Assembly: GCA_003245695.1 (NCBI GenBank)
Contig: QKCK01000072.1
Coordinates: forward strand, 1-35,120
From: Bacteroidota bacterium
GTDB lineage: Bacteria > Bacteroidota > Bacteroidia > Bacteroidales > VadinHA17
Length of the DNA: 35,120 nt
Direction of reading: 5' to 3'
The notes beneath the pieces were generated by a model. The model made no database searches, was not told the DNA's origin, and saw only the letters and a list, made by a program, of their open reading frames with translations. A program made the translations under genes and the position numbers. The stretch's first letter is position 1. Each line of letters opens with the position of its first letter. Positions 1,377 through 35,028 of the stretch are shown piece by piece.

Positions 1377-1380
1377 GATA

Positions 1381-2995: not shown

Positions 2996-4576
2996 TTAAA
3001 AATTATCCTGTGTATCCCACCATACTCTGGTATTGAGATCATCAGCGCCCTGACGGGTAATAGCAGCCGCAAGGTTCGTTGGATTCCTACCTGCTTCATC
3101 TGAAGGATAATATGCTCTTACAGGTATCTTACCGCCATTCTGTCCGGCGATAGCAGGAGTAAGTTCGGGATAACCGGTACGTCTCCATTCGAAAGCAGCC
3201 TGTGCACCCTGGTCAAACATTGCAACCCATTTCTGTGTAGCAATGGATTCAAGGGCTCTGTCAGGATAATAATCGTAGGTTCCACCCCAATCGACAAAGT
3301 CCTGCCATGCATATTCATAGATATCAGCAACAGGTCCATTGTTCCAAGTCGGGCTTTCAAAGGTACTTCTCCATACTTCAAGAGACTCAGCGAAACTGCC
3401 ATCAGCATTATACTGATCCCATGAAGCACGTATAGCGGCATGATATGCCTCTTCTGCAGTGACATCACCACCTGCGATAAAGCCACGTTTTGCAGCTTCA
3501 GCCTTGATAAAGAGAAGCTCAGAGTAACTCATAAGCATGCCAGGAGCTGTTGCTTTTGAGAAATAATCACCAATCTTTGAGGTATTTGCCAGACCGTTAC
3601 CGTTATATGCAGCAGCATCAGCGGTAAGCATTCCGTTAGGAAGTCCTACCCAGTCACCAACACCAGTTGCAAGATTTGCATATACTACGACTCTGTAGTC
3701 TGGACTTGGAGCTTCAGCATAGAGGTAATCGACTATAGTCTTACTAACCCTATGGTCATCTCTGGTCTTTCTGTTCTCATTGATAGGATTGTTATTAGGA
3801 GCTGATCCGAGATACTGCAGAGCAGCATTATCACTGTTTGATTCAAAGACAGGATATGTGTCAGGATCACCAAACATGGTTGTCATCTCTGAAGTAGGAT
3901 CAACACGGTCTGATCTGCGCATCAGAAGACGTAGCTTCAATGAGTTTGCAAATTTCTGCCACAGTTCCAGATCATTGCCATAAAGGATGTCTCCTTCAAT
4001 AGATGATGTTGTGGTGGCAAGAATCTCATTGGCAGTAGTCAGATTTGCAATGAGAGCAGCATAGATTGACTCCTGAGTATCATATACAGGTGAAAGTATA
4101 GGAGTTGCAGCACTACCCTGCCATGCTTCTGAATAAGGACAATCGCCGAACTCATCAGTTATAACAGATGTAATGTAGCTTTTGAGGATCAGGGCAACAG
4201 CCTGGTAAGCTTCATTATTTGTTGCTACAGCTATGTTGTAGATACTCTGAACATCGTATCCTGAAGCAGCATAGAAACTATTCCATGTATTGTTAATAAC
4301 ACTGATACGAGGAACGTACTTATCTTCATCAGTATACTGAACCTTAGCCATGTGCTGAACCCAGCATGATCCCATTTCGTGTCCGAAGAAAATCTCATGA
4401 ACACGGTCGGTCATAGATTCTATTGCATTTGTGAGGAGCATACTTGGTGATGCTTCTGCAATGCCAGGACTGTTAGGATTTGTGTTTATTTCCTCAAAAT
4501 CCTTGGTACAGCTTGATATACCGAAAGTAAAGATCGTTATCAGAGCTGCAAAGTAAATTATAGATTTTCTTTTCAT
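2996..4576 (-). CDS. SusD/RagB-family outer-membrane lipoprotein
   Basis: This 526-residue protein has a lipoprotein signal (lipobox Cys23, ISSC) directly followed by TKDFEEINTNPNSP, a start typical of the SusD-like_2 branch of the SusD/RagB family. The helical TPR-like body is visible in segments such as AYQAVALILKSYITSVITDEFGDCPYSEA and LLFIKAEAAKRG. The family forms the lid on a SusC barrel and captures oligosaccharides or peptides at the cell surface. It lies 22 bp downstream of susC, as expected for a co-transcribed pair. The length is normal for the family. The ligand is unknown: no glycoside hydrolase, peptidase or regulator lies in this operon. Confidence 0.93.
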   Translation of the reverse strand: MKRKSIIYFAALITIFTFGISSCTKDFEEINTNPNSPGIAEASPSMLLTNAIESMTDRVHEIFFGHEMGSCWVQHMAKVQYTDEDKYVPRISVINNTWNSFYAASGYDVQSIYNIAVATNNEAYQAVALILKSYITSVITDEFGDCPYSEAWQGSAATPILSPVYDTQESIYAALIANLTTANEILATTTSSIEGDILYGNDLELWQKFANSLKLRLLMRRSDRVDPTSEMTTMFGDPDTYPVFESNSDNAALQYLGSAPNNNPINENRKTRDDHRVSKTIVDYLYAEAPSPDYRVVVYANLATGVGDWVGLPNGMLTADAAAYNGNGLANTSKIGDYFSKATAPGMLMSYSELLFIKAEAAKRGFIAGGDVTAEEAYHAAIRASWDQYNADGSFAESLEVWRSTFESPTWNNGPVADIYEYAWQDFVDWGGTYDYYPDRALESIATQKWVAMFDQGAQAAFEWRRTGYPELTPAIAGQNGGKIPVRAYYPSDEAGRNPTNLAAAITRQGADDLNTRVWWDTQDNF

Positions 4577-4598
4577 TTCTCTAAGTTTTAAAGGTTAA

Positions 4599-7500
4599 TT
4601 AGAATTTGCAGCTTATGCTGAATCCAATGCTCCTTGCTGATGGCAGCTGGCCAAATTCCAAACCTTGAACGTTACCACTGCTGAAAGCAGTTTCAGGGTC
4701 AATGTGAGGTACATTAGTACTCAGGATAGCAAGGTTACGTCCTACAGCCGAGATATTGAACTCTTTTAAAGGAAGGTTTCCAAACTTCTTGAATGTGTAT
4801 CCTATTTTTACTTCACGTAGTTTAATAAATGAAGCATCAAATATACTTGAGTATGCTATATCACTTACATAAGCAGCCTTATTGAAAGCTTCACAGTCAG
4901 CAACAACAGTGTTTGTTACATAACCTCCTTCACCGTCAGGCATAACACCTTCGCCAACGATACCACCTTCACGTCCGATGAGTGTCTCTTCAAGAGCACC
5001 AGCATAACGTCCCCAGGTTGTAGTCATTGAATAAAGATCGCCGCCTTTCTTCATATCAATAAGGAAGCTTGCATTAAGACCTTTCCAACTGAATTCATTC
5101 AGCATACCGCCGATCCAGTCAGGAGTTACATTACCCAGCACTTTGAGGTCACCCTGAGCAGGAACACCGTCATAGAAAATGACATTCCCGTCATCGTCTC
5201 TCTCAAAGTCATAGCCATAGAGAACACCATAAGACTGATTTGGAACAGCCAGGTTCTGGAGGCTCCAGTATGAACCGAGGAGATATTGTTCAATACCTTC
5301 GGCCAGCTCAATAACCTTATTCTCGTTCTTTGAGAAGTTGAAAGTCATTTTCCACTCGAAGTCTTTCATCTTAACAGGTATCACTGAGAGTAAAATCTCA
5401 ACACCTTTGTTGTCAATCCTACCTGCGTTAACCATCTTATTCAGGTAACCTGATGCAGCTGACACTGCAATAGAAACAATCTGGTCAATTGACTTCTGGT
5501 TATAGTAAGTAACATCAAGTCCAACCCTGTCCATAAAGAAACGCATATCAGCACCGACCTCAATAGAGGTATTCTTCTGTGGTCTCAGTGCAGCATTAGG
5601 CAGTTCATTCGGAACAAAGAGGTTAAGGAGCTTTGTACTTGCATTCCACCCGTCACCGAATGATACTGTTGGAAGGAGGTTGTAAGGATCTGTGTCGCCC
5701 CCTACCTGTGCCCAGCTACCACGTACCTTTGCAAACGAGAGTATGTCTGAGTTAATATGGAAGAGGTCTGTTAATACGGCACTTAATGATATAGCAGGAT
5801 AGATATAACGGCAGTTGTCTATTGGGAGTGTGCTTGACCAGTCAGCACGTACTGAGTAATCAAGGAATATTGCATTTTTATAACCTAACTGACCGAAAGC
5901 ATAGAGTGAGTTGATTCTCTTTGTTGAATGATAGTTTGAAACAACAGGTGTAACTGATGAGTTAGCCAGGTTGTAGATACCAGGAATTGCGAGTTCAGGA
6001 GCCTCACCGGTATTTCTCTGTGTCCATCTGTCCATTCTGTTTCCCCCTACATTCAATGAGGCATTGAAATCAGCTCCAAAGGTCTTCTCGGCTGCAATGA
6101 GGAAGTCAGTGTTTATCTCTCTGAAGAGCCTGACGTCTTCATAATAGTTACCGTTAGGGAAGTCCATGTCGCCAACAAACTTTCTTTCAGAAGCGAAGTT
6201 TGAATAGATATCACCACCAGTTCTCACATAAGCGCTTAACCATGGAAGGAACTGATATTTAACCATTGCATTACCAATAAACCTGTCACGGTCGAGTGTA
6301 CTAAGGTTTTCATAAAGGGTCATGTATGGGTTGTTGTGATAGTTATGGTTCCAGTTGTATATTGAACCATCATCATTATACTGTCTGGCTTTCAGGAGTT
6401 TATAGTCAACCTGACGGCCTGTCCAGAGGAACTGCTGCATAACGTTGTTTGCTGCATAGCCATAACCAGGCTGGTTGTCACTCTTTGCATTGATATAGCT
6501 ACCTGATGCTGTAAATGTAAGCTTGTCAGTCGGGTTTGATGATGCGCTGAACGAAAGAGTCTTCTTTCCGAAGTCAGTGTTTGGAACCATACCTTTCTGC
6601 TGCAAGTTGGTGAAGGAGAGCCTGAAGCTTGATTTTTCACTACCGCCGGTGAGAGATACGTTTGTTGAAACAGTATGACCTAATTCAAAGAAGTCTTTAA
6701 TATTATCAGGATGTGACACCCATGGTGCCGGCTGAGCCACGCCGCTCTCATCAGCTGAGAAGAACTGCGGGATCATCAGACCTATGTCTAGCTGTGGACC
6801 CCAGCTCTCATCAACACCGTCATTGATACCACCTCCCTTACCGTCAACATAAGAGAAGGCTCCTCCGTTACCCTGTCCATAATCATTCTGGAAATCAGGG
6901 AGACGTAACGGCGATTCAAACGTGGTTGTGTTACTGATGTTTACAGAGAGTTTTTCACCTTTCTTGCCTTTTTTGGTGGTAATAACAATCACACCGGCAG
7001 AAGCTCTTGAACCATAAAGAGCGGAAGCATTTGCTCCTTTAAGAATGGTAAGAGTCTCAATATCATCAGAGTTTATATCAGCAGCACCACTACCTTTGTT
7101 TATACCATCAGTACCAGTACTACCGAAGTTAGAGTTGTCAATTGGAATACCATCAATCACAAAAAGTGGCTGGTTATTACCACTAAGAGATGAGATACCG
7201 CGGATTACAATACGTGAAGATGCACCAACAGCACCAGATGTTGCTGTGATCTGAGCTCCGGAGACACGACCCTGAAGTGAGTTGATGATGTTAGTCTCTT
7301 TTGCCCTGGCTATTTCGTCCCCGGTAACATCCTGGACTGAGTATCCAAGTGCTTTCTTTTCGCGTGAGATACCTAATGCTGTCACAACAACTTCTTCGAG
7401 ACCAAGCATATCAGATTGCATTACAACATCGATAGTTGTCCTGCCACCGATAACTTCCTCGATAGCCTTCATACCAACAAAATTGAAGTTAAGTGAAGTT

Positions 7501-20602: not shown

Positions 20603-23227
20603 CTAATCAACCGAAGTAACCTTTCCTTTAAGCTTTAAGCGTATAAGCAAAGCATCGGTTGAAGGTGCATCATGATAGTCAGTGAATCCGGGTTGTTTTC
20701 CACCAACAGATATGGTAAACCACCCTGGCTCAATCACTCTTATACCCTCCTGGTTTATCATAGAGAACTGGTATGGAGTTAGCAGAAATTCAACAGTTTT
20801 GGATTCGCCAGCTTTTAGAAATATGCGTTTAAAACCCTCCAGCTGCCTTACAGGTCTTGGTGTAGATGCGTTTTCGTCAGTGAGATACAACTGTACTACT
20901 TCCTCTCCATCGCGTAACCCAGCATTGGTCACGACTACGCTCACCGACACTGAATCACCGGCAATTGCATATTTATCAGTTTTTAAACCTGAATATCTGA
21001 AGGAGGTATAGCTTAATCCATATCCGAATGGGTATAATGGTTTACCTTTAAAGTACCTGTAAGTCCTGCCCGACATGCTATAATCATCAAATTCCGGCAA
21101 CTGATCCACAGATGAATAGTATGTCACTGGCAACCGGCCAGCAGGATTATAATCTCCAAACAAAACATCTGCAATGGCTGATCCACCTTCAACTCCCGGA
21201 TATCCGGCAAGCAGAACTGCTGCAGCTTTTTCCTGAGCCTCAGCTGATGCCACCGGGCCGCCATTCATCAATACCACGATAACAGGCTTGCCGGATTCTA
21301 TCATTGCATGCAGAAGGGCCTCCTGGGTTGCAGGGAGATTCAGACTTGTGCGATCCCCTCCTTTAAATCCATCAGTCATAATCTTCATCTCTTCACCTTC
21401 GAGCCGTGAAGAAAGACCTAGTGCCACGATTACAACATCAGAAGCAGTTGCAGCCCTTATTGCTTCATCAAGAATTGTTTCTCTTGGTCTGGCCCACACC
21501 AGTTTTATATCTGCATCACCAATCCAGTTTCGGTATAGTATTTCTACCTTGTACATCCTCCCCTGTTCCAGATCGGCCTCAAACTCCTGATCAAGCGCAT
21601 GATGTTCGCCATGAAAACTCAGAACCTGTTCTCCTTCAAAGAACATTTTATAATCCGATGAGCCCCAGACTCCTAAATAATACTTTCCTGACTGAGGAGG
21701 GACTATGTATGTTTCCCAGTGTATCCCAAAGTCATTTACCGGCATTTCGGGTGATGGAGAATCATTCTCCCAGTAGAAGTCAATATTATCATCAACACGG
21801 GAGAAAAGAGGCTCCCCATTCATCTCCTTGCTTTTATAATAATCTCCTTTAGCTCCGTTTCTTCCATCTCCGGTAACCAGGTAGCAAGCTGGTATGACAG
21901 TAAGGTTATGTATACCCGGAGCAAGATCAGAGCCTTCTGCATAAATAACATTGACATCAGGCGACACTTTCTTTCTTATACCCTGAAGAAGAGTAACAGG
22001 GTTCCTGGGGATACCGTTATAATTGCCTATCAGGGCTTCCCAGTTATCTGCATTAGGCCCCACAACTGCCAGTGTACGTATTTTTCTTGTGAGAGGCAGT
22101 ACATCCTGACTGTTTTTGAGAAGGACAATTGATTCACAGGCTGCCTTTCTTGCGAGAGAACGGTTATAGTCAGAACAATTTGCAGAGAAAGGTATCTGTG
22201 AGTAGGGTACAATGGAATCGGGATCAAACATACCCAGTCTGAAACGGGCTGTCATGACTCTCCTTAAGGCCCTGTCAACATCTGACACGGTGATCAGCCC
22301 CCTGTCATATGCCTCTCTCAGGTGTTTGTAGTCTACTCCACATTCCAGATCTGTCCCTGCCTTAATAGCCATTGCTGCGGCCTCAGCTGGTCCTTCTGCA
22401 CTGTTCTGATACCTGTAGAAGTCAGATATTGCCCAACAATCTGATACTATATAACCCTTAAAATCCCATTTATCACGTAGTATACCATATAATTCAGTAT
22501 TGGCGCAGCAAGGCACCCCTTTGAACAGATTATAAGCTCCCATAACTGAATAGACCCCTCCATCCCTTACCAGAGATCTGAATGCGGGCAGATAGGTTTC
22601 ATACAGGTCAATATCACTTACCTCCGCGTTAAATTTATGTCTCAGAGGTTCAGGACCGGAATGAACAGCAAAATGCTTTGCTGTGGCCACTGTCTTCAGG
22701 TAATGATCATCGTCACCCTGCAAGCCATGAACAAAACATGTCCCAAGTCTTCCAGTCAGATAAGGATCTTCGCCATATGTCTCATGACCTCTGCCCCAAC
22801 GTGGGTCTCTGAAGATATTTATATTGGGAGACCAGAAGGTAATACCCTGGTATATGCCATGTTCATTACGGCGTAAAGCTTCATGATACTTTGCCCTGCC
22901 TTCATCGGAGATGGCATTGGCAACATTCAGAATAAGGTCTTCGTCCCATGAATTTGCAATAGTTATCGATTGCGGAAACACCGTGGCATAACCTGACCTG
23001 GCTACTCCGTGAAGAGCTTCATTCCACCAGTTATATTCTTTTATCCCCAATCGTTCAATAGCCGGTGCAGTGTAGAGAAGCTGTGCCATTTTCTCATCCA
23101 GTGTCATCCTTGAGAGAAGATCATCTACACGTACCTCAGTAGAGAGGGTGTAATCCTTATACGGCTCTGTCTGAGAGAAACAAAGAGTTGAGCCCAGAAA
23201 CATTAACAGTAAGCCAAAACGTCTCAT
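20603..23227 (-). CDS. GH3 glycoside hydrolase with PA14 insert
   Basis: The 874-residue protein has a signal peptide (MRRFGLLLMFLGSTLCFSQ) and no lipobox, so it is probably periplasmic. The GH3 N-terminal barrel shows YNWWNEALHGVAR, a motif of the xylosidase/arabinofuranosidase-type branch, and FRDPRWGRGHETYGEDP. The nucleophile is D263 in YIVSDCWA. A PA14 domain is inserted at about 455-590, then the second GH3 domain (LGLSSRLEGE) and a fibronectin-III-like C-terminus (GEEVVQLYL, LEGFKRIFLKAGES). Beta-xylosidase, alpha-L-arabinofuranosidase or beta-glucosidase activity are all possible; the arabinose neighbours favour the first two. A terminator separates it from the upstream epimerase gene, so it may have its own promoter in the 69-bp gap. 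Confidence 0.93.
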   Translation of the reverse strand: MRRFGLLLMFLGSTLCFSQTEPYKDYTLSTEVRVDDLLSRMTLDEKMAQLLYTAPAIERLGIKEYNWWNEALHGVARSGYATVFPQSITIANSWDEDLILNVANAISDEGRAKYHEALRRNEHGIYQGITFWSPNINIFRDPRWGRGHETYGEDPYLTGRLGTCFVHGLQGDDDHYLKTVATAKHFAVHSGPEPLRHKFNAEVSDIDLYETYLPAFRSLVRDGGVYSVMGAYNLFKGVPCCANTELYGILRDKWDFKGYIVSDCWAISDFYRYQNSAEGPAEAAAMAIKAGTDLECGVDYKHLREAYDRGLITVSDVDRALRRVMTARFRLGMFDPDSIVPYSQIPFSANCSDYNRSLARKAACESIVLLKNSQDVLPLTRKIRTLAVVGPNADNWEALIGNYNGIPRNPVTLLQGIRKKVSPDVNVIYAEGSDLAPGIHNLTVIPACYLVTGDGRNGAKGDYYKSKEMNGEPLFSRVDDNIDFYWENDSPSPEMPVNDFGIHWETYIVPPQSGKYYLGVWGSSDYKMFFEGEQVLSFHGEHHALDQEFEADLEQGRMYKVEILYRNWIGDADIKLVWARPRETILDEAIRAATASDVVIVALGLSSRLEGEEMKIMTDGFKGGDRTSLNLPATQEALLHAMIESGKPVIVVLMNGGPVASAEAQEKAAAVLLAGYPGVEGGSAIADVLFGDYNPAGRLPVTYYSSVDQLPEFDDYSMSGRTYRYFKGKPLYPFGYGLSYTSFRYSGLKTDKYAIAGDSVSVSVVVTNAGLRDGEEVVQLYLTDENASTPRPVRQLEGFKRIFLKAGESKTVEFLLTPYQFSMINQEGIRVIEPGWFTISVGGKQPGFTDYHDAPSTDALLIRLKLKGKVTSVD

Positions 23228-23296: not shown

Positions 23297-24427
23297 TCAC
23301 TTTCTTACTGAAAAGCGGTATGTGGTGCTTGAAACAAATGGTTCATCAGGAGTCAGCAACACCGCAGGAAAATCAGCATGATTTGGTGTATCAGGGAAAT
23401 GTTGTGTCTCAAAACAGAGGCCTGAACGATAGTTATAGACTTTACCTCCTCGACCTTTCTGAGTGCCGTCAAGAAAGTTACCAGTGTAAAGCTGAATACC
23501 CGGCTGATCTGTTATAACCTCAAGAACCCTTCCTGTTGATGGATCGTAGGCCATGGCATCAACCTCCTCTGCCTCATCAAGAACAAAATTGTGATCATAT
23601 CCTCTCCCAAGAATAAGCTGTTCATCAGGTTGTTCAATCCGCTCTCCTATTGTATGCGGGGTCCTGAAGTCAAATGGTGTCCCCTCAACTTTGCGTACCT
23701 CACCCGTTGGAATAAGAGTCGAATCAACAGGGGTAAATGCAGAAGCCTTAATAATAACTTCATGATCAAGTATGTCTCCATTACCAACTCCATGAAGATT
23801 AAAATATGCATGATTGGTGACATTAATGACAGTGTTTTTATCGGTGGTTACCTTATAATCCATCACTATCTCGTCATCATCAGTCCAGGTATAAACCACT
23901 TCAACCTCAACATTCCCGGGATAACCCTCTTCCATATCCGGGCTGCTGTAACTGAATCTTATTGCCGGGAAGTCAGTGTTCTCCAGAATCTGGGCATTCC
24001 ATACCCTGCTGTGCCATCCGGTATTGCCACCATGCAATGTATTCACCCCGTCATTCAGGGAGAGAGAATACTCCTGCCCATCAAGTGTGAATTTCCCTTT
24101 TGCAATGCGGTTTGCATACCTGCCCACCACTTTCCCGAAATAGAGATCTCCCTTTAGGTAGTCCTCCATGCTGTCATACCCAAAGGTCACATTTTCCCTT
24201 TTTCCATTCCTGTCCGGAACGTCTATCTCTACAACAGATGCTCCATAATTGGTAAGCTTGATAACATCGCCCTTCTTATTTGTAAGAGTATATAAATAAA
24301 CATCTTTCCCACTGAAAGATCCGAACTTTTCACTTTTTACCATCACTTGTTTCTTTGAGCTGTTGCAGGCAACCATAACTGAAAAGATTGACAGAATAAT
24401 TGCCAGCGTTAATAATTTATTATTCAT
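23297..24427 (-). CDS. Aldose 1-epimerase (mutarotase) lipoprotein
   Basis: I start at 24427 (376 residues), where MNNKLLTLAIILSIFSVMVAC is a lipoprotein signal with Cys21; the frame extends 39 codons upstream but that part lacks a signal. It is a GalM-type epimerase: GRYANRIAKGKF near 103-114, NDGVNTLHGG, the catalytic histidine H206 in NHAYFNLHG, GYDHNFVL and the catalytic base E340 in CFETQHFPDTPNH. It interconverts alpha and beta anomers of free sugars, here most likely arabinose or galactose released outside the cytoplasm. It is last in the arabinose operon, 166 bp behind the GH127 gene, a larger gap than elsewhere in the run, and a terminator follows it. Confidence 0.93.
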   Translation of the reverse strand: MNNKLLTLAIILSIFSVMVACNSSKKQVMVKSEKFGSFSGKDVYLYTLTNKKGDVIKLTNYGASVVEIDVPDRNGKRENVTFGYDSMEDYLKGDLYFGKVVGRYANRIAKGKFTLDGQEYSLSLNDGVNTLHGGNTGWHSRVWNAQILENTDFPAIRFSYSSPDMEEGYPGNVEVEVVYTWTDDDEIVMDYKVTTDKNTVINVTNHAYFNLHGVGNGDILDHEVIIKASAFTPVDSTLIPTGEVRKVEGTPFDFRTPHTIGERIEQPDEQLILGRGYDHNFVLDEAEEVDAMAYDPSTGRVLEVITDQPGIQLYTGNFLDGTQKGRGGKVYNYRSGLCFETQHFPDTPNHADFPAVLLTPDEPFVSSTTYRFSVRK

Positions 24428-24593
24428 ATTATACACTTTATTGTCATTTATGCTAAAGTAAGATATTTTAAAATGAAAAGGAAGCAAATGGAGATCATTA
24501 AATAACAGCCTCTCCCCTTTATTAAGACTCTCCTCATTCAACAACCCATCATGAATTCAGGCCGAGAAGCCTTCCTGTAGCTTAACCCTGAGC

Positions 24594-26684
24594 CTATTCC
24601 CAGCAACCTTTCTGAGGCTCGTACTGATCCTTGACTGATGTGAGTGCATTCGTCTCCCTGCTTGAAGTAACATGACTAAGGAAGGCTATTGTTGGGGCCG
24701 GAACTGCCTTTGCAGCACTCTCCTTATATGGCAGCCACACTTTCATTTCACCTGCCCCCCTGTTATTCCATAAATGATAAGGAATAAGAATCAGATCATG
24801 ATAATCGCCAAGGATGACTGACCCATCAGTATTCATCCTCGCCTCTCTCCCTTTTGTCCTTATTACCTCAGTGCCATTCAGGAGATCCTGATCAAAACTT
24901 GTCTCAAATGTGGGGTTCTCATCAACCACAATACTAAGAGTGTTACCCTCATCATTATCCGGCCACTCAGCACAGAACATCAGTGGGCCGCGCTCCACTG
25001 CATACTTACCATCATCAGCCCTGACCCTGGCATCCGCCACGACAGTCCTGACAGGCATAGGAAGATATAGCTCAATAGTGTCTCCATCCTTCCATTTTCT
25101 CTTTATCAATGCATAGCCATTTACAATTTTGCATATTGTTTCTTTGCCATTGACCTTTATGCTATAACTCTCATCTGTGGCATTACCAAAGGCATAAAGA
25201 TTACCAGGTATAGCTTCATTCCTGGCCCATCCGGGTATTCTTATACGAATGTTAAATGCCCTTTCCCTGAGAGGTGTAAGTGTAATTTTTACCTTACCAC
25301 CCCATGGATATGATGTCTGCTGGTTTATCTGCACATCATTTTCACCGAATTGTATCAAGGCGCTGTTTGAAGCAAAAAGATTAACATAGAGATCATTGTC
25401 AGTAACAGAATAGATGTAACCAGGCAGGGCTGGCAGGAACCTCGCCACATTCGATGGACAGCAGGCACATCCAAACCATTGAGATCTGGCATGTTGACCG
25501 GCAGATTCAAGCGGGTTGGGATAAAAAAACCTGTCACCTTCAAGATTTACTCCTGAAAGAGCTCCGTTATACAAAGTACGTTCAAGGACATCATAATATT
25601 TACTTTCTCCATGCATTGAAAAAAGACGGTGGTTCATGAATATATTGCCTATTGAGGCACAGGTCTCACAATATGCTGACATATTTGGCAGATCATATGG
25701 GTCACTGAAACCTTCGTTTCCACGACTGGCTCCTATACCTCCGGTAATATATAGCTTCTTATACACTATATCCTCCCATATTCTGGTTATAGCATTCAGA
25801 TAGGCCTCATCGCCCAGTATTGCTGCAATATCAGCCATTGCCGAATACATATATGTAGCTCTCACTGAATGGCCTACCGCTTCTGTCTGATCAACAACCC
25901 TCATATGTGACTGTGAGTATTCCTCTCCATCATCTCTGGTTCCACGGGCATCAAGAAAGAACTTTGCCAGATCCAGGTAACGTTGTTCACCTGTAACCCG
26001 GTAGAGTTTTACAAGACCCATCTCAATGACCTGGTGCCCCGGGTATGTCACAAATGCATCCCATCCCATATCCCTGTCGACAAGGTCAGCTGACTTCAGG
26101 GAGATATCAAGCAGCTCTCTTTTGCCTGTGGCCAGATAATAAGCCACTGCAGCCTCATACAGATGTCCCAGATTATATAATTCATGACTGAGTATGTTAT
26201 CCATCTCCCATCGTTTATCTCCTGCCCATTCATGAGGCTTTTCACCTCGCCGTACTGCAATGGTTCTGTTAGTATAAAGGTAACCATCAGCTTCCTGGGC
26301 TGAACCAATCTTTCTTACCAGGGTATCAATATATGCCTCAAGGGCTGTATCGGGATACGTCTGCAATGAATATGCCGCCCCTTCAATTATTTTGTAGACA
26401 TCAGAATCGTCAAATGGGTAAAGTGTCTGAAATCTGCCGGTATCTTTTCCTGCCGCTATATCGAAATTCCTGATCCTTCCTGTTGATTCACAATAGCCAA
26501 AGGCAATAGGTATTGTTACTTCATGGTTTTTTCGTATTCGCGGGCCCCAGAAATTATCATTCATTTTCACTGTGGTGAAAGGCACCGGTCTGATAGGATA
26601 ATTATCAGCAATATCACCTCTGCCTGAACAAGAGGTCAGACAAATTACAAGCGATAAAGCAATAAGTGCGCCGATAGTTTTCAT
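24594..26684 (-). CDS. GH127 beta-L-arabinofuranosidase-like lipoprotein (first in gene order from the epimerase)
   Basis: The 696-residue protein has a lipoprotein signal (LVICLTSC, Cys19) and the (alpha/alpha)6 GH127 (old DUF1680) body. The active-site set of GH127 is complete: E340 and C342 in YCETCAS, and the adjacent C408-C409 in WFGCACCPSN, equivalent to E338, C340, C417 and C418 of HypBA1, where the cysteine nucleophile is held by zinc. Beta-sheet domains follow (SYPWGGKVKI; AVERGPLMFC). The family releases terminal beta-L-arabinofuranose from, for example, hydroxyproline-linked arabinans; substrates of individual members differ. It is 10 bp behind a paralogous gene, so both are made together and probably differ in linkage or aglycone. 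Confidence 0.93.
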   Translation of the reverse strand: MKTIGALIALSLVICLTSCSGRGDIADNYPIRPVPFTTVKMNDNFWGPRIRKNHEVTIPIAFGYCESTGRIRNFDIAAGKDTGRFQTLYPFDDSDVYKIIEGAAYSLQTYPDTALEAYIDTLVRKIGSAQEADGYLYTNRTIAVRRGEKPHEWAGDKRWEMDNILSHELYNLGHLYEAAVAYYLATGKRELLDISLKSADLVDRDMGWDAFVTYPGHQVIEMGLVKLYRVTGEQRYLDLAKFFLDARGTRDDGEEYSQSHMRVVDQTEAVGHSVRATYMYSAMADIAAILGDEAYLNAITRIWEDIVYKKLYITGGIGASRGNEGFSDPYDLPNMSAYCETCASIGNIFMNHRLFSMHGESKYYDVLERTLYNGALSGVNLEGDRFFYPNPLESAGQHARSQWFGCACCPSNVARFLPALPGYIYSVTDNDLYVNLFASNSALIQFGENDVQINQQTSYPWGGKVKITLTPLRERAFNIRIRIPGWARNEAIPGNLYAFGNATDESYSIKVNGKETICKIVNGYALIKRKWKDGDTIELYLPMPVRTVVADARVRADDGKYAVERGPLMFCAEWPDNDEGNTLSIVVDENPTFETSFDQDLLNGTEVIRTKGREARMNTDGSVILGDYHDLILIPYHLWNNRGAGEMKVWLPYKESAAKAVPAPTIAFLSHVTSSRETNALTSVKDQYEPQKGCWE

Positions 26685-26694
26685 TTGAAAGATT

Positions 26695-28662
26695 TTATTT
26701 GGTTTTCATCCATACAAGCATCTCCCCAACGCCTCTGTTTGCCCATGTAAAATAGGGCACAGCCCTCAGAGATATATTCCTGTTACTATTATCCAGAGCA
26801 TTGAAGTAAAGCACATTTATCCCTCCGGAAATTTCCGGATTAAAAACCATATCAACACTCTCAGTCTGGTCAACTAAAATATTCCTCACTCTTCCATTAT
26901 CAACCTCCTCAAGACAGTAAACCAGTGGCCCTAAACCAAGAGCTATCCTGTTGCTGTCAGCTTTCACCTCTCTGCGTGCGGTAATAAAACGCGGCTTCAG
27001 TGGAAGTATGTATTCAATCTGATCATCCTTATACCATGTTCTTTCAATGACAACAAATCCTTTAATAACAGAGTAATCCACCTCTTTTCCGTTGAGTTTA
27101 ATAATCACATTCCCGTTTTCCGGAGTAACATACCTATATAGATTACCTGCTATGGGGGCCTCTCCTGTCCAACCAGGAAGACGAATCATCAATTTGAACC
27201 TGACTGGTTTGTTTTCAGGGGTGAGATGAATTGTCACCTTACCATCCCATGGGTAATTAGTTTCCTGTCGGATTGAAATATCCCTCCCTGATATTTTCAG
27301 GGCAGCATCAGAGCTTATAAAAAGGTTTATCCTTAATGCGTCATCATCAGTGGCATAGATATACTGTGGTATTAAAGGCATAAAACGTGCTATGTTGCCA
27401 GGGCAGCAGGAGCATTCAAACCATTCTGACCTTCTGAAGCGGCCATCAGATTCAAGAGGGTTAGGATAAAAGAAGCTACATCCATCCTGACCTATGCCAG
27501 AAATAAGGCCGTTATAAAGTGTCCGCTCAAGCACATCGAGATAGGAGCCGTCACCAGTGGCACGGTATAAGCGGAAGTTCCAGAAGACATTTGCCACAGA
27601 GGCACAGGTCTCTGTATAGGCACTCATATTTGGCAATTCATAATCACCGCCAAATGCCTCTCCGAATTCTTTGGAGCCTATTCCGCCAGTTATATAAATC
27701 TTCTTTGAGACCACATCAGTCCAGATAGTCTGAGAGGCCTCAAGCCATCTGTTGTCTCCGGTTGCCTCAGCCAGATCAGCCATTGCACTGTACATATATG
27801 CTCCTCTCACGGCATGACCCACTGCACTCTTTTGTTCAAGCACAGGCAGATGCATCTGTAGGTAAACTGAATCATTATAAACTTCAAACCGTGTTCCCAC
27901 AGGGTGTCTGACATAATCACCCTGCCGTCCGCGCACCTCAAGGAAGAATTGTGCCAGATCAAGAAACCGCTTCTCTCCGGTCACCCTCCATAACTTTATA
28001 AGCCCTATCTCTATCTCCTGATGACCAGGTGCAATCTCTCTTTTCCCCCATCCGAATTCTTTTTCCACAAGATCGGCATTCTTCACTGCCACATCAAGGA
28101 ATGTTTTTCTGCCTGTAGCAAGGTAGTGAGCCACAGCTGCCTCGTACATATGACCTGCATTATACAGCTCATGGCTAACTCTTTCGTCAATCCATCTTTC
28201 ACGACCTGCGCCCGGAGCCATATTCACTGAGTCAATTGTGCGTGTGGTATAAAGGTATCCGTCATCCTCCTGTGATGAAGCAATAATATAAACAAGGCTG
28301 TCAACGTATGCTTCAAGTATGGCATCAGGATATTCAATCAGGGAATAACAAGCCCCTTCAATGATCTTGAAAAGGTCGGAGTCATTATATCTCTCACCCT
28401 TAAAGGACCCTTCCTTAAGCTTACCAGCAATGGCAAAATTGTCAATCCTGCCTGTCTCCTCGCATTTAGTAAAGGCATATGGAATAGTAACCATTCTGTT
28501 TCGCTCAATCTTTGGAGTCCAGAAGTTATCTGTCACGCTTACCTTATTCAGTTCAGGTGTCTCCAGCCATCGCTTTGCAGAGTCATTGCCATTTAGTGAG
28601 GAACAGGCTGAAAATAAAACAGCAAACAGAGCCAGCGTCGCTGACAGAATAACTCTTATCAT
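26695..28662 (-). CDS. GH127 beta-L-arabinofuranosidase-like lipoprotein (upstream paralogue)
   Basis: The 655-residue lipoprotein (VLFSAC, Cys20) is a second GH127 enzyme. E351 and C353 in YTETCAS and C419-C420 in [10 protein letters not shown] form the zinc/cysteine nucleophile site. It shares the overall plan with its neighbour (KNHEVTIP-like start here [55 protein letters not shown]) but the sequences have drifted widely, so this is an old duplication or two separately gained subfamilies. Its ATG overlaps the araB stop (ATGA, 4 nt), which argues for translational coupling of an extracytoplasmic hydrolase to a cytoplasmic kinase gene. The exact substrate cannot be read from the sequence. 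Confidence 0.93.
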
Positions 28663-30347
28663 GATCTGGCCTCCTTTTTTATCTCCTTCAGGTTTTTCAT
28701 TACACTATTTACACCCCGCCCGAAATAATCATGAAGTATCTTATACTCAGAATAAAGCTTCTGATATAAAAGAACATTTTCTGTCACGGGTTTAAAAGTC
28801 AATGGTTTCACTTTTGCCATTATCATTGCTGCCTCCTGTATAGTATCGAAGCCTCCTGCCTCCTTGCCGGCAGCCACTGCGCCAAACATTGCTGATCCCA
28901 GGGCTGGCGCCTGCGGGCTGCCCGAAATTTTTATTTCTCTTCCGGTGACATCAGCATATATCTGCATCACGAAGGGATTCTTCTCAGCGATACCCCCTGC
29001 AGCATAGAGCTCATCAACAGGGACTCCGTTTTCAGAGAATGTATCAACTATCATCCTTGTGCCAAAAGCAGTAGCCTCAACAAGAGCCCTGTATATCTCT
29101 TCAGGCCGGGTCGCCAGTGTAAGGCCTACTATCACACCGGTAAGGTCTACATCAACAAGAACAGACCTGTTTCCATTCCACCAGTCGAGTGCAATAAGAC
29201 CACTCTCTCCAGGCTTAAGTTTTTCTGCCTTTTCGGTTAGCAGGGCATGAATGTCAATATTCCTCGACTCTGCCTCCCTGACATATTCATCAGGAGTGCA
29301 GTTCTCAACAAACCATTGAAAATGGTCACCCACACAGCTTTGACCAGCCTCATACCCATAATAACCTGCAATAACGCCATCCTCAACTACTCCACACATG
29401 CCAGGCACCTCCTTCTCATTTTCCCCCAGGAGGATGTGACAAGTTGATGTTCCCATTATCATAAGCATTTTACCAGGTGATGTTATACCTACTGCAGGAG
29501 CAGAGACATGGGCATCGACATTTGCAATTGCCACTGCAGTACCCTGTTTCAAACCTGTCAGTTTGGCAGCTTCTTTGCATAAGCCTCCGGCATTCACCCC
29601 TACAGGAGAAATATCAAGAGAGAGTTTCTTACCCGGAAGGTCAGAAAAAAGTGGGTTAAGCTCTCTGAAGAAATCATTTGATGGGAAACCATCTTTCTTA
29701 TGCCATATGGCTTTATAACCTGCTGTACAGCTATTATGACTCTCCCTGCCTGTAAGTTGCCAGATAACCCAGTCTGCTGCTTCGACAAATCTGTCAGCGG
29801 CTTTATATATATCCGGCGACTCATCAGCTATCTGCATTATTTTTGGAATCATCCATTCGGAAGAAATTTTTCCTCCATACCGTTTGAGAAACTTCTCACC
29901 TCTGGTTTCTGCAACAGCATTTAATTTATTTGCCTCATTCTGTGCTGCATGATGTTTCCATAGTTTAACCCACGCATTGGGGTCACTGCTGAATTTATTA
30001 TCAAGACATAGTGGTGTGCCATCAGAATATACCGGCAGCATGGTACAGGCTGTAAAGTCAATGCCAATGCCAATTATCTCTTCAGGGTCCACACCTGCCG
30101 CTTTAAGTACAGCGGGGATTGTAGCCCTGAAGACCCCGATATAGTCAAGTGGATGCTGAAGGGCCCAATCCACTCCCAGTGACCTGCCATCAGGAAGCCT
30201 GTCATCCATCACTCCATGAGGGTACTCAAAAACAGAGACAGCAGCCTCATCACCATTCTCAACATTTACAAGAACAGTACGGCCCGAAAGAGTGCCAAAA
30301 TCAACACCAATGGAATATTTACTCATTGCTTTAAAGCTTGTTTTCAT
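28659..30347 (-). CDS. araB: Ribulokinase
   Basis: The 562-residue FGGY kinase phosphorylates L-ribulose to L-ribulose 5-phosphate in the cytoplasm, the second step of arabinose breakdown. AraB features are the N-terminal [57 protein letters not shown], the catalytic-region aspartate D278 in [20 protein letters not shown] and the C-terminal [19 protein letters not shown]. The start at 30347 has a purine-rich AAAGGTG 6 bases before it; the internal ATG at 30326 (MSKYSIG) is the alternative and matches other AraB starts slightly better. The gene lies 90 bp behind araD and overlaps the next GH127 gene by 4 nt. Confidence 0.96.
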
Positions 30348-30437: not shown

Positions 30438-31127
30438 CTATTTTTTCTGGCCATAATAAGCTCCTTTGCCATGTTTGCGTAAAAAGTGTTTATCGAGCAG
30501 AGTGGTCTCAATTGTTCTCTCAGGGGCTATCGCAATAGTAATAGAGGCAATGCGGGCTACCTCCTCCAGTAAAACTGCGTTATGAACAGCTTTGCCAGCA
30601 TCCTCACCCCAGGCAAATGGTCCGTGTGATAAGACAAGGACAGCAGGGATTTTCAATGGATCTGTTTCAGCAAAGCACTCAGCAATTGCAAGACCAGTAT
30701 TATACTCATAGTCTGATGCTATCTCAGATTCTGAAAGTCTTCTGGTGACAGGTATTTCACCATAAAAATAGTCGGCATGTGTTGTCCCGAGACAGGGGAT
30801 AGGCTTCCCGGCCTGTGCCCATGCAGTGGCAAAAGAGGAATGTGTATGCACAACACCACCGACAGAAGGGAAAGACTTATACAGAGCTGCATGAGTCGGT
30901 GCATCCATGGATGGTCTCAACGTACCCTCAATAACCTTACAGTTAAGGTCAGTCACAACCATATCCTCAGGATGCATTTCAGAGTATGAGACGCCGGAGG
31001 GCTTTATAACCATTAATCCTGACTTCCGGTCATATGCACTTACATTGCCGAAGGTAAAAATTACCAATCCGTGCTCCACAAGATTCAGGTTCGCCCTATA
31101 TACTTCTTCCTTAAGTTTCTCAAGCAT
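30438..31127 (-). CDS. araD: L-ribulose-5-phosphate 4-epimerase
   Basis: The 229-residue class II aldolase-fold enzyme converts L-ribulose 5-phosphate to D-xylulose 5-phosphate. Zinc ligands H94 and H96 in [12 protein letters not shown] and H168 in LSHGPFAWG match H95, H97 and H171 of E. coli AraD; D119 in THADYFYG corresponds to the catalytic D120, and the tail tyrosine in KGAYYGQ to Y229. The FGNVSAYDR and IKPSGVSY motifs bind the phosphate and substrate. The length fits the family. It lies 33 bp behind the regulator gene and 90 bp before araB within the arabinose operon. Confidence 0.97.
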
Positions 31128-31160: not shown

Positions 31161-31865
31161 TCAATTCACATCAAGGTTAAAGAAAAAGCCATTCCTTTTG
31201 AAGGCTTTGTATTTCTCCTCGTTGAATCTGTAATAATAAGCACCTTTTTTTGAGGTCTGTTTCTCCTTCTCATCGAGTTTCTCGAGTAGATTCATTGAAA
31301 GAATTTTCTTTCTGAAATTTCTCTTGTCAATCTTTCTCTGATATACTGCTTCATAAAGCTCCTGGAGTTGCACAAGAGTGAATTTCTCGGGCAGCAGTTC
31401 AAACCCTACCGGCTGTGTCTTGACTTTATGCAGTAATTCAGCAAGTGCAGCCTTAACCATTTTGTCATGGTCAAAAATGAGTGCAGGAATAGCAGAGATT
31501 GATCTCCAGTGAGCTCCATTCTGCTCCTGCTTCTCAGTATTAATTTCATGTATCCCGATTAGTGAATAATAAGCCACAGAAATAACACGTGCTCCCGGAT
31601 CACGATCAACAGAGCCATAAGTTCCCAGTTGCTCCATAAAAAGATCTGACAGGCCTGTGAGAGTACCAAGCACTCTTGTTGCTGCAGAATCAATATCCTC
31701 ATTCTCCTCCACAAAACCACCGGAGAGTGACCATTTACCCTTTGCCGGGTCAAAACTCCTTTTTATAAGAAGTAGTTTGAGCTCCTTATCAGTAATATCA
31801 TATCCAAATATGATACAGTCAACAGCTACATAATGCTTCGGACTCTCTGAGTATAGTTTTAACAT
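31161..31865 (-). CDS. araR: Nudix-like AraR/NrtR-family transcriptional regulator
   Basis: The 234-residue protein joins an N-terminal Nudix-fold domain (about 1-140) to a C-terminal winged-helix part (about 150-230; FTLVQLQELYEAVY, RNFRKKIL, YYYRFNEEKY). The Nudix box keeps G50, E56, R64 and G71 but the metal-binding glutamates are replaced (V65, T68, L69), so it should bind a ligand rather than hydrolyse a nucleotide. This is the architecture described for NrtR and for AraR of Bacteroides thetaiotaomicron, a repressor released by L-arabinose. Its position between araA (7-nt overlap, ATGTTAA) and araD supports that role and implies autoregulation. The gene symbol rests on context and architecture. 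Confidence 0.88.
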   Translation of the reverse strand: MLKLYSESPKHYVAVDCIIFGYDITDKELKLLLIKRSFDPAKGKWSLSGGFVEENEDIDSAATRVLGTLTGLSDLFMEQLGTYGSVDRDPGARVISVAYYSLIGIHEINTEKQEQNGAHWRSISAIPALIFDHDKMVKAALAELLHKVKTQPVGFELLPEKFTLVQLQELYEAVYQRKIDKRNFRKKILSMNLLEKLDEKEKQTSKKGAYYYRFNEEKYKAFKRNGFFFNLDVN

Positions 31866-33349
31866 ATTCCCTTATTTATATGATAGAACAGGTCGTTCCA
31901 CCGCAGTTCTTTTTTAAACTCCTCAATATTACACTTTTCATCAATGATCAGACATTCAACACCCATCATCTCTGAGAAGTCGACTATATGTTCTGGAAGA
32001 AGAGACTGGGAGAAAGAGGTATGGTGAGCACCTCCGGCATATATCCAGGCAGTGGCGGCTGTCTTAAGATCAGGTTTTGGCTGCCATAATACGCTTGCCA
32101 CAGGCAGTTTTGGCATTAAAGGAGCCTCAATCACTTCAACAGTATTCAGGATAATCCTGAATCTGGTACCAAGATCAACAAGTGAGGCATTCAATGCGCG
32201 GCCCGTTTTGGCACGGAAGACAAGTCTGGCCGGGTCGTTCTTGCCTCCAATGCCAAGCTTATGTATCTCAAGAGAAGGTTCTTCAGATGCAATTGAAGGA
32301 CACACCTCAAGCATATGAGCACCAAGACCGGCCATTGCGGCCGGATCAAGGTGATATGTATAATCTTCCATAAATGAGGTACCGCCATGGAGGCCTGAGG
32401 CCATCACTTTCATATTTCTTACCAGGGCAGCAGTCTTCCAATCCCCCTCAGCGCCAAAACCATAACCATCAGCCATCAGCCGCTGTACTGCCAGTCCTGG
32501 CAGTTGTGCCAGACCATGAAGATCCTCAAAAGTGGTTGTAAAAGCCTTGAAGTTCCCCTCCTCAAGAAAGCTTCTCATTCCTGCCTCAATCCTTGCTGCC
32601 TCCTTCAACGAAGCCGACTGAAGCAGGTCAGAGGCAACATGGTATTCATCACTGTATTTTTTTAGCAGCCCTGATATTTCATAATCAGGTATCTGATTCA
32701 CATGAGCCACCAGATCACCAACGCCAAAGCCATGAACCTCATAGGCCAGAGTAATCTGAGATGTGACCTTATTCCCCTCTGTCACTGCAACGTCACGCAT
32801 ATTATCACCAAAGCGGGCTACTCTTAAAGAGCGGGCATCAAGGGCCGCCACAGCTGCTCTTGCCCATACAGCAATTGAAGCTATTGCCTCACTATCGCTC
32901 CAATGGCCTGTTACTACCTTGCGCGACAGTCTCATCCTGGAACATATATACCCAAACTCCCTGTCGCCATGAGCTGATTGATTCAGGTTCATAAAATCCA
33001 TATCAATCGTTTCCCATGGAATATCACGATTATATTGGGTATGAAAGTGCAGGAAAGGCTTATTTAGCTTACTCAGCCCTGATATCCACATCTTGGCAGG
33101 AGAGAAAGTATGCATCCAGGTAATAATACCGGCACACCTGTTATCATTGTTAGCCTCCAGGCACAAAGATGTAATTGCTTCTGAGGTGGTAAGAACAGGC
33201 TTAAAAACAACACGCGTAATAATTGATTCATCATCGTCAAGTACCGCAGCGATTTTCTCTGAATCATCTGCCACATGCCTCAGGGTCTCTTCTCCATATA
33301 AGTGTTGACTGCCTGTAACAAACCACAGGTCAAAACCAGCATTCTTCAT
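31859..33349 (-). CDS. araA: L-arabinose isomerase
   Basis: The 496-residue enzyme isomerises L-arabinose to L-ribulose in the cytoplasm with a divalent metal, usually manganese. Metal and catalytic residues are all in place: E301 in FGAEGDWK, E328 in SFMEDYTYH and H345 in GAHMLEVCPSIA, a constant offset of 5 from E306, E333 and H350 of E. coli AraA, and the second histidine in GGAHHTSFSQ. WFVTGSQHLYG at the N-terminus and FHTQYNRDIPW are further family signatures. It follows the symporter gene after 26 bp and its last codons overlap the regulator start by 7 nt, so regulator output is probably tied to araA translation. Confidence 0.98.
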   Translation of the reverse strand: MKNAGFDLWFVTGSQHLYGEETLRHVADDSEKIAAVLDDDESIITRVVFKPVLTTSEAITSLCLEANNDNRCAGIITWMHTFSPAKMWISGLSKLNKPFLHFHTQYNRDIPWETIDMDFMNLNQSAHGDREFGYICSRMRLSRKVVTGHWSDSEAIASIAVWARAAVAALDARSLRVARFGDNMRDVAVTEGNKVTSQITLAYEVHGFGVGDLVAHVNQIPDYEISGLLKKYSDEYHVASDLLQSASLKEAARIEAGMRSFLEEGNFKAFTTTFEDLHGLAQLPGLAVQRLMADGYGFGAEGDWKTAALVRNMKVMASGLHGGTSFMEDYTYHLDPAAMAGLGAHMLEVCPSIASEEPSLEIHKLGIGGKNDPARLVFRAKTGRALNASLVDLGTRFRIILNTVEVIEAPLMPKLPVASVLWQPKPDLKTAATAWIYAGGAHHTSFSQSLLPEHIVDFSEMMGVECLIIDEKCNIEEFKKELRWNDLFYHINKGIC

Positions 33350-33375: not shown

Positions 33376-35028
33376 TTACCAGAAATATATGTAAAATGCA
33401 ATAATTACACTGATAATTATTGCTGTATGGACTAAATCCCAGACATTCCAGCTTGCCCTTGTAACTGCACGTTGTTCAGGGGTACCCGACCCGATATAAA
33501 GTCCTTTAATGGAGAGAGGATCAGGTTTCGTTGTAAAGAAGCTTACAACCACTATTATCAATATCACAAGGAAGAAGAGTGCAATTTCATAATGGAGCCA
33601 GTTTGGGGCCACGAAGACTTTATATATAATACTATCCGGATCAAGAGCTCCTGAGAAGATCTTAAGAACCAACCGTAACATGCCAAGAAAAAAACCTGAA
33701 ACAAGACCTGTAAGGCCTGCAGCAGAAGTGGTTCGCTTTGAGAGTATGCCAAGAGCAAAAACAGCAGCAATACCAGGGGCAAGAAGTGACTGAACATCCT
33801 GCAGATATGCATAGAGCACCTTGCCCAGATTTCGCATCACAGGTATCCAGAGAACACCCAGAATCACCACCACTACTGTAGCTATCCTGCCGACACGGAC
33901 CAGCTCTTTCTCTGGCGCATCAGGTTTGATTTTCTGATAAAAATCTATAGTGAACAGCGTAGCAGATGAGTTAAACAATGAGGCAAGTGAACTCATCAAC
34001 GCCGCCAGAAGGCCACCAACAACCAAACCCTTGAATCCTATCGGCAATAGCTCCTTAACCATTGTTGCAAAAGCTGCATCAGATGTTTCAAGTGATAAAA
34101 GTCCCTTTTGATTAAGTGCGAAGGCGATCATTCCCGGAATAAGGAAGATAAATACGGGCGTAAGTTTCAGATATGCTCCGAAAATTGCTCCCCTCCTGGA
34201 GTGTTTTTGATTCCGGCCTGAGAGAACACGCTGAACTATATACTGATCAGTACACCAGTACCAGAAACCAATAATTGCAGATCCAAGAATAACACCTGTC
34301 CACGGATATTCGGGATCATGAGGAGATCTTATCAGTGATGTCATTGAATCACCAAACTCATTTACAGGTACCGCGCGGCAAATATGCATCATTTCATCCC
34401 ATCCGCCTATCTTTATCAGCCCTGCAGCCAGAACGGCAATAGAGCCAATAAGCAAAACCGGAGCCTGTATTACTGAAGTCCAGAGTATTGCCTTCATGCC
34501 ACCCAGTGTAGTATATATACCTGTAAGAACAACCAGCCCTATGGCACTTATCCAGAAGAAATCAATACCCCATATCGTATCTATTCCAAAAACAGCTTTG
34601 AAGACTACCCCTCCTGCATATACCGTAACGGCAACCTTTGTCAGAACATAACTAACCAGTGAGATAACTGAAAGAAATGATCTCGATTGCTTATTATATC
34701 TTTTCTCAAGAAACTCAGGCATTGTAAATACACCTGCCCTTTCGTATAAGGGAACAAACAGCCAGCCTAGCATAAGGATCAGCCAGCCATGCATCTCCCA
34801 GTGAGCCATAGCCATTCCGGAAGAAGCACCAGCACCTGCAAGGCCAACAAGATGTTCCGATCCTATATTTGATGCAAAAATTGAGGCGCCTATGGCAAGC
34901 CATGTAGCATCACGCCCGGCAAGAAAATAGTCTGCTGAAGTGTTATCCTTTGAGCGCATTGCCCACAAAATAACGCCTATTAATGCAACGCAAAACAGGC
35001 CTAATACAATCCAGTCTAGTGGTAACAT
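33376..35028 (-). CDS. SSS-family Na+/sugar symporter
   Basis: The 550-residue inner-membrane protein has about 14 hydrophobic segments and clear SSS/SGLT signatures: DYFLAGRDATWLAIGASIFASN, GSEHLVGLAGAGASSG, TMPEFLEKRYN, YTTLGGMKAILWT and FWYWCTDQYIVQRVL, the last matching sugar-transporting members. It would bring L-arabinose, or a related free sugar, into the cytoplasm with sodium. It is the first gene of the arabinose operon, with araA 26 bp downstream. The start at 35028 (MLPLDWIVLG) leaves a 92-bp AT-rich upstream region to the window edge that carries a 16-bp palindrome. Substrate assignment rests on context. Confidence 0.93.
   Translation of the reverse strand: MLPLDWIVLGLFCVALIGVILWAMRSKDNTSADYFLAGRDATWLAIGASIFASNIGSEHLVGLAGAGASSGMAMAHWEMHGWLILMLGWLFVPLYERAGVFTMPEFLEKRYNKQSRSFLSVISLVSYVLTKVAVTVYAGGVVFKAVFGIDTIWGIDFFWISAIGLVVLTGIYTTLGGMKAILWTSVIQAPVLLIGSIAVLAAGLIKIGGWDEMMHICRAVPVNEFGDSMTSLIRSPHDPEYPWTGVILGSAIIGFWYWCTDQYIVQRVLSGRNQKHSRRGAIFGAYLKLTPVFIFLIPGMIAFALNQKGLLSLETSDAAFATMVKELLPIGFKGLVVGGLLAALMSSLASLFNSSATLFTIDFYQKIKPDAPEKELVRVGRIATVVVVILGVLWIPVMRNLGKVLYAYLQDVQSLLAPGIAAVFALGILSKRTTSAAGLTGLVSGFFLGMLRLVLKIFSGALDPDSIIYKVFVAPNWLHYEIALFFLVILIIVVVSFFTTKPDPLSIKGLYIGSGTPEQRAVTRASWNVWDLVHTAIIISVIIAFYIYFW

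Follow-up and report, generated by a model that had tools for sequence, protein, structure and literature searches.

Why should a single arabinose operon carry, side by side, two genes for enzymes of the same family? The question is raised by a stretch of DNA from Bacteroidota bacterium (assembly GCA_003245695.1, contig QKCK01000072.1, positions 1-35,120), the full 35,120 nucleotides of which are called the window here. Two neighbouring genes in the window, referred to below as A and B, encode lipoproteins of glycoside hydrolase family 127 (GH127). The explanation that we favour, with moderate confidence, is that they are two periplasmic, exo-acting, retaining GH127 beta-L-arabinofuranosidases that act on one donor sugar and probably differ in the aglycones or linkages that they prefer. 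From sequence and structure prediction we infer the activity itself, the periplasmic location, the co-transcription with the operon, and the split of aglycone preference.

Two lipoproteins with one catalytic pocket

The two genes, and the motifs that the alignment identifies as holding their Zn-ligand and nucleophile Cys pairs, are as follows.

26695..28662, minus strand: GH127 lipoprotein B, 655 amino acids, PGAG / long-segment type; the first 4 base pairs (bp) of the gene coincide with the end of araB
24594..26684, minus strand: GH127 lipoprotein A, 696 amino acids, HxW / short-segment type like BT3674; it begins 10 bp after B
27400..27423, minus strand: WFECSCCP of B, with the Cys pair C419-C420
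25455..25478, minus strand: WFGCACCP of A, with the Cys pair C408-C409

The original prediction of two GH127 lipoproteins in tandem at 24594-28662 is borne out. The open reading frames lie at exactly these coordinates, and both proteins match PF07944 (catalytic domain) and PF20736 and PF20737 (middle and C-terminal GH127 domains) over the curated Pfam cut-offs. In each, a lipobox-like Cys closes a hydrophobic N-terminal stretch (LTSC in A, FSAC in B). By a permissive lipobox pattern and by eye, all 18 A and all 18 B N-termini examined, those of the window included, have such a Cys. In Bacteroidota, the signal for surface lipoproteins consists of acidic residues directly after this Cys. No acidic residues stand there in A or B, so the two proteins are probably lipid-anchored in the periplasm rather than at the surface.

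Confidently predicted structures of both proteins (A: predicted local distance difference test, pLDDT, 88.8 and predicted template modelling score, pTM, 0.88; B: 91.8 and 0.91) show the (alpha/alpha)6 barrel with beta-sandwiches, with Z 57 to 6ex6 and 46-48 to 3wkw. The best structural match in both cases is 6ex6, the structure of BT3674 (A: Z 57.6, 1.6 Å, 631 residues aligned; B: Z 57.2, 1.5 Å, 609 residues aligned). BT3674, a GH127 beta-L-arabinofuranosidase of the Bacteroides thetaiotaomicron arabinogalactan system, is also the best solved relative by sequence score (766.9 bits for A and 625.3 bits for B). HypBA1 of Bifidobacterium longum (BLLJ_0211; 3wkw/3wkx) shares the fold (Z 48.3 to B and 46.3 to A, against 3wkw), but is only 34-36% identical in structural alignments, and one of its stretches seems much shorter in A and B, as compared by eye against Ara127N with the HypBA1 sequence taken from residue 49. 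Geobacillus Ara127N (4qjy/4qk0) is likewise a GH127 enzyme of the same fold (Z 46-48), at 42-43% identity in structural alignments. Structures of family GH146 rank next for both models, with Z 30-36 at about 3 Å.

Twelve catalytic and pocket residues were compared, in HypBA1 numbering: H142, Y145, H194, H270, R273, E322, E338, C340, E366, Y386, C417, and C418. We take E338, C340, and C418 to be the Zn ligands of HypBA1, and H270, E366, and Y386 were included as residues that presumably belong to the same site. As a check on the numbering, the expected residue was found at all 12 named positions of HypBA1. For that enzyme, one source names Cys417 as the nucleophile and Glu322 as the acid/base (PMC8106489), and another names R273, H194, H142, and Y145 as the substrate site (PMC10850190). 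All 12 residues are identical in A, B, HypBA1, BT3674, and Ara127N. The Zn and catalytic set E322, E338, C340, C417, and C418 corresponds to E324, E340, C342, C408, and C409 in A, and to E335, E351, C353, C419, and C420 in B. The complete Glu/Cys and Cys-Cys Zn-thiolate site that had been claimed for both proteins is therefore present, together with all of the HypBA1 pocket residues compared. Assignment to GH146, the family of BT0349 and Bll3HypBA1, was rejected, since 5opj matches at only 57.6 and 63.9 bits and the GH127 pocket residues are there; the GH146 pocket residues are described in PMC10850190 as completely different from those of GH127.

On this basis, each enzyme would bind a terminal beta-L-arabinofuranose (Araf) in the same -1 pocket. 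The Zn-bound Cys (C408 in A, C419 in B) would attack the sugar, with a Glu (E324 in A, E335 in B) acting as acid/base, and the L-arabinose released would become available to GalM, the symporter, and AraA-AraB-AraD of the operon. The aglycones or linkages accepted would differ between the two enzymes (candidates are Araf-beta1,2-, 1,3-, 1,5-, and hydroxyproline-linked Araf), and the pair would in this way widen the range of oligosaccharides that feed one operon.

The sequence difference first offered as a sign of two specificities lies directly before the Cys pair, GCACC in A and ECSCC in B, and had been read as a change in the aromatic context of the nucleophile. The letters differ as given, yet the difference (WFGCACC versus WFECSCC) is not aromatic, and W-F is common to both. 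Positions 414-416, ahead of the pair at 417-418, take 28 letter combinations in the 137 aligned proteins (GCACC 51, DCSCC 18, ECSCC 3), and even among the six congeneric B orthologues in the alignment five have DCSCC and one QCSCC. Because these positions vary so freely, GCACC versus ECSCC is no evidence of different specificity, and it was discarded as a marker. The wider claim of two distinct specificities survives in another form, as a probable difference in linkage or aglycone preference that would rest on two segments elsewhere in the proteins.

Two segments and the ancestry of the pair

The alignment of A with B spans 667 positions, at 46% identity. Judged from the alignment, the difference between them is around, and not inside, the pocket that would hold beta-L-arabinofuranose. 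It is concentrated in two segments, both located by alignment.

28159..28272, minus strand: B segment 131-168 with PGAG, reaching pocket residues H164 and Y167
26172..26297, minus strand: A segment 130-171 with HEW (H151, W153), reaching pocket residues H167 and Y170
27838..27945, minus strand: B segment 240-275, 36 residues, ahead of pocket residues H283 and R286
25893..25958, minus strand: A segment 243-264, 22 residues, ahead of pocket residues H272 and R275

The stretch before H142/Y145 reads KPHEWAGDKRW in A and HPHNWAGKERW in BT3674; B carries PGAG there. The second stretch, HypBA1 220-262, precedes H270/R273; its length is 19-22 residues among the 17 listed A-type rows, 22 in BT3674, and 36 in each of the 12 listed B and B-like rows. 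BT3674 thus resembles both proteins in fold and in the 12 pocket residues, and A alone in its HxW motif and 22-residue segment; it is unlike B in both segments. Ara127N, with 41 residues in the 220-262 segment and neither HxW nor PGAG, is unlike both. Since the two segments in which A and B differ lead, in sequence, into pocket residues, the two enzymes probably accept different aglycones or linkages.

The features were followed through an alignment and tree of 137 GH127 proteins, which include the 6ex6 (BT3674), 4qjy (Ara127N), and 3wkw (HypBA1) chains and eight aceric-acid hydrolases, the latter from ten found over the NF049879 cut-off in 295 genomes. GH127-like open reading frames had been collected to a total of 162 (157 distinct), and five rows were added (A, B, and the three PDB chains). 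The 137-row set leaves out 11 rows (partial sequences, L138, and the A and B rows of L034, L035, and L036, so that three congener genomes are absent) and a further 14 rows from seven congener loci (L115, L116, L118, L120, L121, L122, and L126), which were near copies. Taxon counts refer to a sample of 80 of 518 confirmed relatives.

A segment of at least 36 residues occurs in 21 of the 137 rows. HypBA1 and Ara127N are two of these, and the remaining 19 all carry a PGAG-type motif. Among the 116 rows with a shorter segment, the motif is found once (L099). The reverse association is looser: HxW is present in 36 of 59 short-segment rows and in five of the 78 others, and the 59 include the eight aceric-acid hydrolases and six members of a clade with HVCPCC or HNCPCC. 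Between 21 A and 14 B rows, 16 positions are fixed differently (at least 90% within each clade, with a different residue class).

The phylogenetic check placed A, B, and BT3674 in three separate clades, in agreement between the 137-row tree and a 50-row tree built under a mixture model without the two segments. In the 50-row tree, the A clade has 11 rows (support 100/99), the B clade seven (98/85), and the BT3674 clade three (100/100); the deep forks among them have no resolved order. None of the characterised enzymes included in the trees falls in the A or the B clade, a shared characterised clade was not seen, and BT3674 is not an orthologue of either protein. The strong divergence noted earlier for the pair is thus confirmed and is old, and a recent local tandem duplication is ruled out by the separate supported clades.

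Rows with PGAG and the long segment fall in three separated parts of the 50-row tree. The first is the B clade; the second (93/92) combines Aminicenantes rows with rows that lack the features; and the third (92/86) is made up of the Phycisphaerae set together with L049, L131, and L132. As the deep forks of this tree are open, the PGAG rows may have had a single origin followed by losses. It is conceivable, although we would sooner doubt than accept it, that B represents an undescribed class of GH127, marked by PGAG with a segment of 36-37 residues, known so far from Bacteroidales, Aminicenantes, and Phycisphaerae, and that this class differs from HypBA1 and BT3674 in the linkage or aglycone that it prefers. 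The operon would then keep one enzyme of each class. The segment combination recurs in separated parts of the tree, among them locus L041, whose two sister genes differ in precisely these two segments.

In L041 (Aminicenantes), two sister GH127 genes are divergently oriented (1-1995, minus strand, and 4231-6288, plus strand; support 100/99). One has PGAG and a 36-residue segment, and the other has 25 residues and neither feature. In another genus of the family to which the window's host belongs, a GH127 of a different lineage takes the place of B in the ara operon; it has VSCC and a segment of 36 residues (L131:8419-10455, minus strand; L132:6344-8305, plus strand). A separate clade of six GH127-like proteins (L140, L145, and L150-L153) has open reading frames of about 900-960 amino acids and the motif HVCPCC or HNCPCC. 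Of the six, L153 was scanned with Pfam, and its GH127 match starts only at residue 393.

The arabinose operon and its conservation

The genes around the pair, all on the minus strand, are those of an arabinose operon.

33376..35028, minus strand: sodium/solute symporter, AraP-like by position (family match and gene position)
31859..33349, minus strand: araA, L-arabinose isomerase (family match)
31161..31865, minus strand: AraR-like regulator of the Nudix/NrtR family (NUDIX, NrtR_WHD, and AraR_C over Pfam cut-offs)
30438..31127, minus strand: araD, L-ribulose-5-phosphate 4-epimerase (family match)
28659..30347, minus strand: araB, L-ribulokinase (family match)
23297..24544, minus strand: aldose 1-epimerase, galM / AraM-like (family match)
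20603..23227, minus strand: family GH3; closest among NCBIfam models to Xyl3A beta-xylosidase (922.7 bits, below the cut-off of 1250)

The run reads symporter, araA, AraR-like regulator, araD, araB, B, A, galM, GH3, and so contains the gene set of an AraR-type ara operon (araA, araB, araD, an AraR-like Nudix regulator, and a transporter). The window extends only 92 bp upstream of the symporter. The regulator scores 43.6 bits to AraR_C (cut-off 23.8) and 128.6 bits to the NCBIfam NtrR model, below the cut-off of 400 for that model. With a 4-bp overlap between araB and the start of B, and 10 bp between B and A, co-transcription of both genes with the ara genes is likely.

In Bacteroides, araMPRDAB operons are under the control of AraR, of the NrtR family, and most species have a distal abf3, for an alpha-L-arabinofuranosidase, according to PMC4666351. 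The window has the same core genes and an AraR-like regulator of the Nudix/NrtR family, but two GH127 genes and one GH3 gene in place of abf3, and the gene order differs. No description of a GH127 pair in an arabinose operon was found in the literature searched, with many journals outside its coverage.

The pair is widely kept within the genus. A search with B across 100 genomes of relatives, the own genome counted, gave a match at E <= 1e-30 in 52. Of the 21 congeners, 17 have a B copy with at least 63% identity, each time with an A-type match as its direct neighbour. Across the 15 congener stretches L114-L128, araB is without exception followed immediately by B and then A; within this set, the araB frame is short in L118, the contig ends inside A in L119, and A is split in L123. 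Among genomes of other genera of the family, G027 has B at 59-60% identity together with A; in G035 and G049, A is accompanied by a different second GH127 with 48-50% identity to B. The ratio of non-synonymous to synonymous substitution rates (dN/dS, NG86) is low among the most similar orthologue pairs, which indicates purifying selection on both genes: 0.03-0.16 for A (seven of the eight pairs shown, the eighth having a saturated dS) and 0.05-0.14 for B (the eight pairs shown).

Some further features of the congeners are recorded here. In L034:1-4359, neither araB nor araD separates B from the fragment that directly precedes it and matches the Nudix regulator. In one congener (L123 / L036), A appears as two overlapping frames, through a sequencing error or a real frameshift. 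SusC-like open reading frames lie downstream of A, on the same strand, in L114, L120, L125, L126, and L127 (in L114 as a fragment at the contig edge), and in these five stretches the ara genes may continue into a locus for uptake across the outer membrane.

One part of A is degraded.

24548..24662, minus strand: remnant of a C-terminal F5/8-type domain of A, with an in-frame stub at about 24612-24662 and an out-of-frame shard at about 24548-24610

Nine of the 17 orthologues printed have a C-terminal accessory domain of about 110 further amino acids; the other eight stop before it. The domain is weakly of F5/8 type C, with 32.4 bits in L130 (above the cut-off of 28.2) and 23.5 in L125 (below it). 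In the window, the in-frame piece stops at 24594 and the shard lies out of frame near 24548-24610, while the enzyme core of A is unaffected. The earlier view that neither gene is decayed therefore applies to the catalytic cores, which are intact in both, and not to the accessory domain of A, of which only the stub and the shard are left.

Alternative explanations and the substrate

Several points weigh against a division of labour between A and B. The 12 residues are the same in all 129 of the 137 rows other than the aceric-acid hydrolases, including the HVCPCC clade. Since they are the same whatever the role of the protein, they do not exclude other sugars or resolve finer specificities; they favour beta-L-arabinofuranoside chemistry over that of the aceric-acid type, although as evidence about the sugar they are weak. 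Two enzymes that share a pocket could be identical in activity, and the contact of the two segments with the aglycone is assumed from their place in the sequence, leading into pocket residues. HypBA1 and Ara127N have a long segment without the PGAG motif. On supported branches, four contrasts between motif and segment are available: in 184 of 200 pairings three agree, none opposes, and one shows no difference, and in the remaining 16 two agree and two show no difference. With only four independent contrasts, the co-variation of motif and segment cannot reach significance. The conservation of the pair also has gaps, as no B copy at or above 63% identity was seen in four of the 21 congeners. There is no adjacent pair in G011 or G014, the A-type match of G017 is at a contig edge, and in G001 a fragment of 49% identity adjoins A at a contig end.

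A and B may thus be redundant paralogues, with the same beta-L-arabinofuranosidase activity and kept as a pair for dosage or for slightly different conditions, which we consider rather unlikely. Besides the identical -1 pocket residues and the common operon, this explanation could draw on a strict family search (98 genomes, the own genome counted; E 1e-150, completeness at least 80%), in which 74 genomes had a match and 56 of these 74 a single one, and on the A-type gene that stands alone in five ara operons of other genera (L136, L137, L141, L147, and L148). It fits less well with the 46% identity of the pair, with the separate conservation of each clade under purifying selection, and with two segments that are fixed differently per clade.

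A second alternative is a different sugar for one of the pair, more probably for B; candidates are the aceric acid of rhamnogalacturonan II (RG-II) and 3,6-anhydro-D-galactose, on both of which GH127 enzymes are known to act. The sole NCBIfam match of both proteins is indeed the aceric acid hydrolase model NF049879, GH127 includes 3,6-anhydro-D-galactosidases according to PMC5698469, and the tested pocket residues, invariant in the 129 non-aceric rows, do not separate such activities. However, A and B score 451.7 and 420.8 bits against a cut-off of 950 for that model, and the aceric-acid hydrolase equivalogues have Phe at 142 and Gln at 322 in eight of eight aligned, where A and B have His and Glu. 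An aceric-acid hydrolase of the BT1003 type was rejected on these two counts, and the RG-II activity that had been put forward for the pair is unlikely. The arabinose operon context also speaks against another sugar, and we hold this alternative to be improbable. More improbable still is that A is the working enzyme of the operon and B a recruited gene on its way out: A is the type found in the ara operons of the other genera just named and the four congeners lack a close B copy, but B has a complete site, dN/dS values of 0.05-0.14 in the eight congener pairs shown, and a place adjoining A in 17 of 21 congeners.

The genome as a whole, which is 94% complete, offers some indication of the substrates. 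It has three PF07944 matches, of which the third (L001, contig C289) lies directly after a PHP-domain gene and is GH146-like by eye, from its TCC motif only, and it has three GH43 enzymes. A GH51 partner, sought by PF06964, and HypBA2, of the extensin-type disaccharide route, gave no match, and both absences are soft because of the 94% completeness; the extensin-type route was set aside on the latter. The enzyme set points to the use of beta-Araf-capped oligosaccharides and does not name the glycan.

The correction of the motif-based inference has a general consequence, namely that the letters preceding the Cys-Cys pair do not report specificity. To our knowledge, few members of GH127 have been characterised. 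If the split between A and B is true, the pair would provide a natural contrast, within one operon, for what determines this choice in cysteine glycosidases. For the organism, the window presents an arabinose operon whose arabinofuranosidases are predicted to be specific for the beta and not the alpha form, and this would indicate plant or algal glycans capped with beta-Araf as a food source.

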